Below are positions 42,557 through 44,992 of a stretch of 64,000 nucleotides of DNA, one piece after another. The notes under the pieces were generated by a model. The model was given only the letters and a program-made list of their open reading frames with translations. It searched no databases and was not told where the DNA came from. The stretch is from the NCBI GenBank assembly GCA_036704125.1, contig DATNQI010000059.1, positions 1 through 64,000 of the forward strand, given 5' to 3'. Source of the DNA: Pantanalinema sp. (GTDB lineage: Bacteria > Cyanobacteriota > Sericytochromatia > S15B-MN24 > UBA4093). The position numbers and the translations under genes were made by a program. Position 1 is the first letter of the stretch. Each line of letters opens with the position of its first letter.

Positions 42557-43642
42557 TCATTCTTCCTCGGTCCATTCGAGTAGCTTACGGCGCAGATCGT
42601 CCTTGCTCGGGAGAAACAACCGATACTCGCGCGCATGGATGTTTGCCCCCTCGGGGAGGGTGATTTCGACGAGCGCGTCGTGCTTCTTTTTGCAAAGGAT
42701 GATGCCGATCGTCGGTCCTTCTTCGGGCAGCTTGACGTGCCGGTCGTAGTAGTTGACGTACATCTGCATCTGGCCGAGGTCCTGGTGGGTGAGCTTCCCG
42801 ATCTTCAGGTCCACGAGGACGAAGCAGCGCATGAGGCGATTGTAGAACACGAGGTCGACGTAGAAGTGCTCGTCGTCGAAGGTGAAGCGTCGCTGGCGCC
42901 CCTCAAACAGGAAGCCCTTGCCGAGTTCCAGGAGGAAGTGCTCCAGCTTGTCGATGATGCCGGATTCGAGCTCGGACTCCGAGTAGCTCGGGCGCTGATC
43001 CAGCCCGAGGAACTCCAGCACGTAGGGCTCTTTGAGCAGATCGGTCGGCTTGGCGACGACCTGACCCTCGATCGAGAGCGCGCGAACTGCGTCCTTGTCG
43101 CGCGACAGCGCGAGCCGCTCGTAGAGGCTCGTATCGTACTGGCGGCGCAGTTCGCGCAGCGACCAGCCTTGATTCGTGGCCTCGATCTCGTAGAAATCAC
43201 GTTCCGCGGGGTCGCCGATCCCGATGAGGAAGGCGTAGTGCGACCAGCCCAGGGTAAACGGGCGATGCATCGTGGGCGAGTATTCTGTAGACGGTGTCTG
43301 GGAAACCCCAGCAACACCAATGCTCTCCGAAATCCCAGACACTGTCTGGGATTTCGGAGAGCGATCCTGGTAGGCAACGTAAAACCGCCGGAACAGCCTC
43401 AGATTCTCGACCGAATAGCCCCGCCCGAACTCCGCTACCAAAGCCTTGGAAAGCGAAGGAAGCACACCCCGGCCATACTCGGCCCGCTCCTCCCCGCCCT
43501 GCTCATGCAGAACGATCCGCCGACCGATCTCGAAGTTGGTGAGCACCGCCAGTGCGTTGACCTGGCGCGCGGCGCTGGTGCGAGCGGCCTGGAGCAGTGC
43601 GCGGATCTCGGCGACGAGGGACGAGGCGTCGGGTAGGCTCAT
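42557..43642 (-). CDS. YhcG/DUF1016-type PD-(D/E)xK nuclease family protein
   Basis: A 361-residue protein of the DUF1016 (YhcG) family. The N-terminal helical domain (about 1-95) has 'NALAVLTNFEIGRRIV' and 'ENLRLFRRFYVAYQ'. A central 'LGWSHYAFLIGI...ERDFYEIEATNQGWSLRELRRQ' set (split here) is diagnostic. The nuclease fold lies at about 230-300 with DEHFYVDLVFYN and CFVLVDLKIGKL, the likely Asp and Lys of the active site. The linker at about 95-130 holds SQTVSGISESIG and SQTPS, short repeats typical of this family's variable region; the DNA there is a perfect palindrome. Family members are linked to recombination and defence contexts, but the function is not settled. The ATG at 43642 lies eight bases after the GNAT stop. 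Confidence 0.88.
   Translation of the reverse strand: MSLPDASSLVAEIRALLQAARTSAARQVNALAVLTNFEIGRRIVLHEQGGEERAEYGRGVLPSLSKALVAEFGRGYSVENLRLFRRFYVAYQDRSPKSQTVSGISESIGVAGVSQTPSTEYSPTMHRPFTLGWSHYAFLIGIGDPAERDFYEIEATNQGWSLRELRRQYDTSLYERLALSRDKDAVRALSIEGQVVAKPTDLLKEPYVLEFLGLDQRPSYSESELESGIIDKLEHFLLELGKGFLFEGRQRRFTFDDEHFYVDLVFYNRLMRCFVLVDLKIGKLTHQDLGQMQMYVNYYDRHVKLPEEGPTIGIILCKKKHDALVEITLPEGANIHAREYRLFLPSKDDLRRKLLEWTEEE
43322..43362. repeat. Perfect 41-bp palindrome inside the DUF1016 gene
   Basis: Twenty bases from 43322 are followed by a single C at 43342 and then their exact reverse complement to 43362. It encodes the SQTVSGISES linker on the minus strand, and the plus strand in another frame also reads SQTLSGISES. 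A related partial copy of TGTCTGGGA occurs near 43295. It may be an intragenic palindromic element, a recombination hotspot or a simple slippage product. Confidence 0.9.
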
Positions 43643-43650
43643 GCGGCGCC

Positions 43651-44091
43651 TCAGAGCGTCTCGAGCTTGCGGGTCATGCGGCGGTGGGGGATGTCCGCGT
43701 CCATGAAGATCGGGCCCTCGGCGACGAAGCCGAGCTTCTCGTAGAGGGGCATGGCCTCGAGCTGGCTGTCGAGCACGGCCTCGGTGAAGCCCTCGCGCCG
43801 CGCGTACTCCATCAGGAGCCTGACCAGCTTGCTTGCGATCCCCTTGCCGCGGTGAGGCTTCAGGGTGGCGACCCGGCCGATCTTGACCCGGCTGGCGTCG
43901 AGGGAGATGAGCCGGGCGGTCGCGACCGGCGTGTCGTCCTCGCTCGCGAGCACGTGCCATGCGATCCCGTCGTAGTCGTCGATCTCGAGATCGAGCGGGA
44001 CGCCCTGCTCATGGACGAAGACGGCCTCGCGGATGCGCAGCGCGTCGCGGACCTGGGGATCGGTGCCGGCGAAGAGGTCGAGGCTCAGCAT
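43651..44091 (-). CDS. GNAT-family N-acetyltransferase
   Basis: A 146-residue acetyltransferase of the ElaA/YjcF-like GNAT group. The fold elements are visible: 'DALRIREAVFVHEQGVP' (helix after strand 1, with the HEQG motif typical of this subfamily), 'VATARLISLDASRVKIGRVATL', the acetyl-CoA loop KPHRGKGIASKLVRLLME (R/Q-x-x-G-x-G/A) and 'AMPLYEKLGFVAEGPIFMD' near the C-terminus. The acceptor is unknown; small amines or an aminoglycoside-like compound are possible. The gene lies between ccdA (four bases upstream) and the DUF1016 gene, and its stop probably serves as part of the latter's ribosome-binding region. Confidence 0.92.
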   Translation of the reverse strand: MLSLDLFAGTDPQVRDALRIREAVFVHEQGVPLDLEIDDYDGIAWHVLASEDDTPVATARLISLDASRVKIGRVATLKPHRGKGIASKLVRLLMEYARREGFTEAVLDSQLEAMPLYEKLGFVAEGPIFMDADIPHRRMTRKLETL

Positions 44092-44851: not shown

Positions 44852-44889
44852 GGGGTTCCTTCTTGCGAGGGGACTTCGAATCTAAGAGC

Positions 44890-44958
44890 ATCTAACAAGA
44901 CCAGGCATGTTATGCCGTTGGCCGCCGTGGGCGGCTCGAAGGAACAGTCTTGTTAGGC
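44890..44958 (-). repeat. attC-like site, second copy
   Basis: On the minus strand this 69-bp element reads GCCTAAC...GTTAGAT, matching both core-site consensuses (RYYYAAC and GTTRRRY). It lies 34 bases after the exonuclease stop. Its outer arms (CTAACAAGAC/GTCTTGTTAG) pair perfectly and contain an inner GCCGCC-CAC-GGCGGC hairpin. It is homologous to 18514-18580 across most of its length, in the same orientation relative to the preceding gene. Flanks TCTAAGAGC and GCTCTAAGA nearly extend the stem. No integrase is nearby. Confidence 0.55.
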
Positions 44959-44992
44959 GCTCTAAGAAAGGTACGACATCCCCCCTGAAGCG

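Follow-up and report, generated by a model that had tools for sequence, protein, structure and literature searches.

The 41-bp perfect palindrome inside a DUF1016/YhcG nuclease gene of the window (the whole stretch of DNA analysed, 64,000 nucleotides from Pantanalinema sp.) belongs to a family trait of DUF1016 genes, and we read it as the cognate site of the protein that it helps to encode, most likely an autoregulatory operator (with a probability of roughly 0.7). From the symmetry of the sites, the joint change of their two arms and the couplings between protein residues and site letters, we infer that each DUF1016 protein very probably binds the palindrome of its own gene as a dimer. Given such binding, repression is the likely purpose of the site, since the site is confined to the own gene and copies of it lie upstream of some genes.

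Consistently with the original prediction, the palindrome lies within a gene whose product matches both domains of the family (Table 1), passing the curated Pfam cut-offs for PF17761 DUF1016_N (E 7.5e-37; 126.9 bits vs 32.8) and for PF06250 YhcG_C (E 2.3e-51; 174.2 bits vs 32.5). Its arms (43322-43341 and 43343-43362) are 20 nt each and 100% complementary around a single base, which makes it the longest perfect palindrome (0 or 1 central base) of the window, the next ones having arms of 10 and 9 nt. The codons involved encode ...SQTVSGISES..., and the opposite strand does read SQTLSGISES, within a plus-strand ORF (43294-43542), as a trivial consequence of the symmetry. In 3000 synonymous recodings of the window gene the odd-dyad arm never exceeded 9 nt, against the 20 observed, which disposes of chance codon use; the palindrome is real and far beyond chance. 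A second, decayed site is centred 48 nt (16 codons) from the main dyad and keeps 6 of 13 pairs. The protein residues that carry the recognition code described below (79, 82, 83, 134, 137 and 162) are all encoded outside the palindrome.

Table 1 Coordinates in the window of the DUF1016 gene, its palindromic sites and the codons of the putative DNA-reading elements.
Feature	Position	Strand	Basis or remark
DUF1016/YhcG nuclease gene, 361 aa	42557-43642	-	ORF, Pfam PF17761 and PF06250, translation
41-bp perfect palindrome, codons 94-107	43322-43362		dyad base 43342 = base 1 of codon 101 (Val)
Putative binding-site core, dyad ±9 bp, containing CCCAGACAxTGTCTGGG	43333-43351		family-wide arm co-change and coupling to protein residues
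Decayed second site, centre 43294	43281-43307		6/13 pairs, one half retained
Codons of helix 78-94, putative recognition helix	43361-43411	-	residues 79, 82, 83 track outer letters k=7, 8, 5
Codons of helix 133-139 (WSHY motif)	43226-43246	-	residues 134, 137 track inner letters k=3, 4
Codons of residues 162-163, start of helix 162-170	43154-43159	-	track k=1-3
PD-(D/E)XK nuclease domain, EndoMS/NucS-like fold	42581-43042	-	Pfam, structure match, invariant D263 and K280

Several features of the surroundings were noted in passing. A 146-aa ORF on the same strand lies upstream (43651-44091), with its end 8 bp from the DUF1016 start; by eye it resembles a GNAT acetyltransferase, and it may share a transcript with the DUF1016 gene. 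Two similar intergenic stretches with inverted repeats, one in the window (~44883-44969) and one at another locus of the same genome (L002, ~942-1021), each lie near a DUF1016 copy and are built as TCTAACAA ... GGCGGC ... TTGTTAGGCGCTCT or in complement order; read by eye, they look like a dispersed repeat. The DUF1016 copy at L002 (~1350-1750, contig C19 of the window's own genome) is a remnant of a second gene, in which the perfect palindrome ATTTGTGCAGGCGTCGCCTGCACAAAT is retained and fused to a C-terminal fragment, the DNA-binding domain being absent.

DUF1016 genes were gathered from relatives of the window genome, from phylum samples of three further genomes, from viral contigs, and from 80 named records, archaea among them, the loci fetched being part of the matches listed (50 of 60 listed; 77 and 53 among the matches listed; 21 of 21; 80 of 584). 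The 334 loci yielded 319 DUF1016 ORFs, or 305 after removal of exact duplicates; eight whose linker region was too short and one whose linker was a duplicate were then removed, leaving 296, and removal of one wrong-frame ORF (L042_+_356) left 295 distinct genes. A linker dyad, defined as a best odd dyad with at least 10 of 13 pairs, was present in 270 of the 295, in bacteria as well as archaea, against 43 of 1470 windows taken elsewhere in these genes, 18 of 589 ORFs in the flanks and 1594 of 29500 synonymous shuffles, a control rate of 3-5%. These dyads are near-perfect, span ~19-27 bp, lie in the same linker and are centred on codon base 1 in 260 of the 270 genes, usually with AATT at the outer ends. 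Their sequences differ widely (e.g., AATTGTCCAGACAGTGTCTGGACAATT, AATTGTGAAACAGGGTGTTTCACAATT and TTCTGCCACCATTGGTGGCAGAA), with 177 distinct half-arms among 281 sites. The linker palindrome is thus a family trait of DUF1016, contrary to the possibility, raised beforehand, that other genes of the family would show none; the 25 genes that stay below 10 of 13 pairs count against the own-site reading. The repeated QT-S units expected in the family were also found, E. coli yhcG having three in tandem.

The core of the site, SAGACANTGTCTS, was matched at 39 places in 28 genomes, 28 of them in DUF1016 genes and 11 elsewhere (21 lay in linkers of DUF1016 genes already collected, and the 18 others comprised 7 in DUF1016 genes and the same 11 outside). 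When arms were compared by eye, only one of the 11 non-DUF1016 places was symmetric beyond the 13-bp core: at ~1235 of locus L158 (CAGACATTGTCTG), longer arms make a 19-mer palindrome, within a reading frame that has no DUF1016 match. In all 12 genomes whose DUF1016 gene carries GTCCAACAGNCTGTTGGAC, every exact copy fell within a DUF1016 gene (places matched by eye), one per genome and two in G554, and no copy with one mismatch was found in them; at 2-3 mismatches there were 53 places vs 30 for a control pattern, so that weaker sites elsewhere are possible. In the window genome, the sole exact match to the 17-bp core was the window palindrome itself, with 7 places at up to three mismatches vs 5 for the control. 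A search of 11 genomes with GTGACGCANTGCGTCAC at up to two mismatches returned the expected sites and scattered near matches, mostly in G499 (11 places vs 5 for the control, including two extra one-mismatch places).

A dispersed palindromic element was rejected on these counts, 28 of the 39 core matches being in DUF1016 genes and L158 being the sole extended exception; of the intragenic palindromic element first proposed, the intragenic part holds. A related explanation, in which the palindrome is a selfish repeat or a mutational artefact (template switching that perfects quasi-palindromes) in an unconstrained linker, seems very improbable to us. It would suit the low-confidence linker of the structural model, the repeated QT-S units and the L158 19-mer, which has the same core in a gene unmatched to DUF1016; however, the codon phase is fixed, exact or extended copies are otherwise confined to DUF1016 genes, residues outside the palindrome predict its letters and similar sites lie upstream of some genes. 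Rickettsia palindromic elements are likewise in-frame palindromes in protein genes, but in the available part of their description (PMC4316617) they measure ~100-150 nt and are inserted in many genes, whereas the DUF1016 site is confined to one family and apparently self-read.

Codon logos, sister pairs and couplings were derived from the 281 genes with a best codon-base-1 dyad of at least 9 of 13 pairs. Among 127 independent sister pairs, at distances k=1-9 from the dyad, paired double changes (189) outnumbered one-sided changes (119) and unpaired double changes (35), while controls in which one arm was slid by one or two codons gave 3-8 paired double changes. This co-change peaked at k=3-8 and was less marked both at k=1-2 and at k=9-13, and sites sometimes differed between sister proteins more than 90% identical. 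The departures from pairing bear on whether an RNA stem in the coding sequence (for translation control, RNA processing or as a guide) is the object of selection. Perfect arms would give a strong stem and the weaker co-change at the two innermost positions is loop-like, but G.U-compatible departures were not favoured: G-C to G-U occurred in 2/254 and U-A to U-G in 12/279, vs 8/337 and 23/535 for the A.C kind, and one-sided departures comprised 17 G.T vs 40 A.C, an excess that may reflect codon composition, so that our claim is limited to G.U not being favoured. The selected object is therefore more likely DNA than an RNA stem; the protein residues that predict the letters also argue against an mRNA hairpin, which we hold to be most improbable.

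Protein columns that track changes of the palindrome, corrected for divergence, were in order 83, 79, 134, 82 and 137. By mutual information corrected for column averages, the couplings outside the linker were 79-k7 (z 9.1), 137-k4 (8.4), 134-k3 (7.9), 162-k3 (7.9), 83-k5 (6.6), 82-k8 (5.4) and 163-k1/k2 (5.3); any other outside position reached at most 3.3, and the helix neighbours of 79, 82 and 83 scored 0.3-2.5. In leave-clade-out prediction, with a single residue as predictor of a letter and training restricted to sequences that share 55% identity or less with the one tested, the best columns exceeded the baseline for k4 (column 137, 0.77 vs 0.27), k5 (83, 0.90 vs 0.75), k7 (79, 0.63 vs 0.25) and k8 (82, 0.71 vs 0.50). 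For k3 the best column was 162 (0.75), with 298 close behind (0.73), and for k1 column 191 equalled 162 as a predictor; no reader column clearly led for k6 and k9.

The resulting code is simple in single-site genes, in which Arg79 goes with G (80/81), Trp82 with T (35/35), Glu82 with C (24/25), Tyr83 with A (69/69), Gly134 with C (33/33) and Arg137 with C (31/33); Thr and Ser at 79, Lys at 82 and Thr at 134 are ambiguous. The window protein agrees with this code at k3, k4 (with one training gene only) and k5 and disagrees at k8, where Arg82 predicts G and the site has C, Glu79 being uninformative. Replication slippage that varies the linker, which had been suggested for the palindrome, is at most part of the explanation: the linker does vary in length, as in a 78-nt in-frame deletion in one E. 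coli allele, but arms that change together and letters predicted by outside residues are not the product of slippage alone.

Some genes carry more than one site. In 52 such genes, sites within a gene mismatched by 5-19% at k1-5, vs 38-54% between genes, and by 35-49% at k6-9, vs 48-68% between genes; on our reading of this difference between inner and outer letters, the extra tandem sites may be fossil sites. The idea that, of several sites, the cognate one comes first was tried and not retained, the upstream helix fitting the first site best in 21 genes vs 12, with 19 ties, which is a trend only. Nor did we retain the notion that paralogues in one genome must differ: among the few same-genome pairs there was no added site divergence. 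Both results count against the own-site reading.

E. coli yhcG, unreached with a distant Pseudomonadota query, was obtained through plasmid records. Its three tandem sites have 13, 10 and 12 of 13 pairs, and it occurs as two alleles that are near-identical except for a segment spanning the recognition helix and the sites. Allele 1 has K79, R82, Q83, S134 and V137 with CGCCAGACA as its first site, and allele 2 has R79 and W82, the others as in allele 1, with GTGCAGACA; the code taken from the previously collected genes and applied by hand predicts k3, k4, k5, k7 and k8 correctly (5/5) in each. In strain LD91-1, the second site of allele 2 is still CGCCAGACA. The allele-1 segment was matched in 3915 of 5426 genomes (3385 over at least 80% of the segment) and that of allele 2 in 468 of 5426 (462 over at least 80%). 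Judged from these sequences, helix and palindrome are evidently swapped as one cassette between the alleles.

Rearranged copies of yhcG were also observed. The second and third palindromic units have been lost through two distinct deletions, one of 78 nt that preserves the frame (L339) and another annotated as frameshifted (L338). In four truncated copies (L337, L345, L340 and L347) the match ends at nt 406 or starts near nt 385, breakpoints that lie in or beside the third palindrome and adjoin transposase genes.

The exchange between alleles raises the possibility that the enzyme nicks or cuts its own gene at the site, and that subsequent repair exchanges the cassette, inserts or removes units and makes specificity more diverse. 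This explanation overlaps with an operator insofar as both begin with binding of the own site; the odds that we give to the explanations overlap, and their sum need not be 1. We consider it fairly unlikely. Helix and palindrome were exchanged jointly between alleles otherwise near-identical, L339 lost two units, breaks at nt 385/406 fall beside the third palindrome near transposase genes, the nuclease residues are conserved, and sites can differ between proteins more than 90% identical. A gene cut at its own site should disappear, however; the breaks, of which few were read, are explicable by ordinary recombination and IS activity, and the upstream copies of the site suit regulation better. 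An extended version, which we hold to be unlikely, would make these genes self-reading and self-rewriting: the nuclease would act at its own palindrome and repair would exchange the cassette of helix and palindrome, making new matched pairs and leaving old palindromes behind as tandem units.

Dyads upstream of the genes bear on autoregulation, the preferred purpose of the site. Within 100 nt upstream a dyad was present in 13 of 252 genes, vs 1/245, 4/247 and 1/245 in control stretches; 5 of the 13 (L075, L092, L099, L141 and L218) are unlike the linker site of their own gene, and an upstream dyad matching the gene's own half-site was found in 5 of 246 genes vs one downstream. When leader or first codons were scanned, an upstream dyad was present in 6 of the 33 genes whose linker site is weak or lost, vs 13 of 253 others (Fisher p 0.013). 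Four of the six (L107, L111, L115 and L124) are close relatives of one kind, and these are therefore not six independent cases; the other 27 of the 33 have no upstream dyad either, which counts against the own-site reading. In L130, whose linker site is lost, TCCGAGACA lies upstream and agrees, compared by hand, with the residues of its protein at 4 of 5 coded positions. The upstream site of L107, read by eye, directly follows a TATGAT box and precedes GGAG and ATG. Upstream dyads that replace a weak linker site point to autoregulation.

The window protein as modelled by AlphaFold (mean pLDDT 86.8) has its reading residues close to where helices 78-94, 133-139 and 162-170 begin, and its linker, modelled with low confidence, is probably disordered. 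The nuclease domain matches EndoMS/NucS (PDB 5gke, 2vld; Z 11.8 over 107-110 residues, 14-18% identity); the match is limited to model residues 217-343, the N-terminal domain of DUF1016 being unmatched there. D263 and K280, which do not vary among 110 aligned sequences, are on our reading of the motif the putative PD-(D/E)XK catalytic residues. The nuclease context that had been suggested for the palindrome is relevant. The N-terminal domain of the YhcG family is without confident fold matches in the available part of an earlier survey (PMC1189080). With an isolated model of this domain (L208, pLDDT 91.5), a second structural aligner placed DNA-binding domains of ParB, Noc and Spo0J in the top 11 rows (Z 9.2-7.2, where 8-9 is middling for a helical model), followed by Raf1 (Z 6.5), and Foldseek gave no significant match for the N-domain model (best E 0.29 for Raf1, 0.32 for ParB). 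We propose, on the basis of these models, that DUF1016_N is a ParB/Noc-like DNA-binding domain.

According to the available part of Jalal et al. 2020 (PMC7383237), ParB makes its contacts from alpha4, alpha6 and alpha8, residues 173 and 201 contacting half-site bases 1 and 6. As in ParB-parS and Noc-NBS, the DUF1016 palindrome would be read by three elements, with helices from 78, 133 and 162 as counterparts, and residues 173 (recognition helix) and 201 (later element) would be comparable to DUF1016 79/82 and 134/137; the comparison is one of division of labour, not of exact residue registers. The differences are that no ParB CTPase domain was found in the window protein, that a PD-(D/E)XK nuclease is attached in DUF1016, and that its dyad is odd. 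Moreover, parS is largely common, whereas DUF1016 has 177 distinct half-arms among 281 sites, and its site is usually in its own codons. An intragenic parS occurs in B. subtilis spo0J.

This likeness bears on whether the palindrome is a parS-like place of loading or tethering, for instance to keep the nuclease in an inactive state or to label the gene as self, and not an operator. The ParB/Noc-like domain and the restriction of the exact site to each genome's DUF1016 gene or genes are in its favour, as is the place of the family in PADLOC under PDC-S02, which we take to mean a candidate single-gene defence (HMM PDLC04807 matches the window protein with E 5.6e-133). A Pfam scan of the window protein returned PF17761 and PF06250 only, with no CTP-binding ParB domain, and the upstream sites speak for regulation; we consider such a role quite unlikely.

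In the autoregulatory reading, two copies of DUF1016_N would bind the dyad symmetrically, the helix before the linker (79, 82, 83) reading the outer letters and residues 134, 137 and 162/163 after it reading the inner ones. Its location in the linker codons would be explained by the linker's tolerance of almost any sequence and by the constant co-transfer of site and gene. A dimer bound ~300 nt inside the frame, or upstream in some relatives, would block transcription, and this may limit the amount of a potentially harmful nuclease.

Neither autoregulation nor autorepression by nucleases is new in kind. I-TevI and other T4 intron endonucleases are autorepressors, as stated in the available part of PMC2988022, and I-TevI would resemble DUF1016 as a site-specific nuclease that binds a copy of its recognition site and thereby represses its own gene; it is an intron-encoded GIY-YIG enzyme with an operator over the promoter, whereas DUF1016 is a PD-(D/E)XK enzyme (PF06250) with a site mostly inside the frame. 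In the parts available of PMC4316617, PMC1913061, PMC11341870, PMC7383237, PMC7022226, PMC12704722, PMC1189080 and PMC2988022, no DUF1016 palindrome or operator is described, most subscription papers and bioRxiv lying outside the search, and no tested function for DUF1016/YhcG is named in the literature searched, within the same limits. What is new is a family-wide site that lies in the own codons of a gene and co-evolves with a readable code, for which no precedent was found in the parts of the literature covered.

If this reading is right, DUF1016, a widespread but little-studied family of bacteria and archaea, would be given a DNA-binding mode, a recognition code that can be read, and a probable regulatory circuit. 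Symmetry at the level of DNA would shape the protein sequence throughout the family, motifs such as QTVSG or VQQAVGQL being shadows of binding sites. Protein-DNA pairs, each held in one gene, would form a large natural set of binders with differing sites. With the two E. coli alleles, two amino-acid changes would allow the code to be tested.
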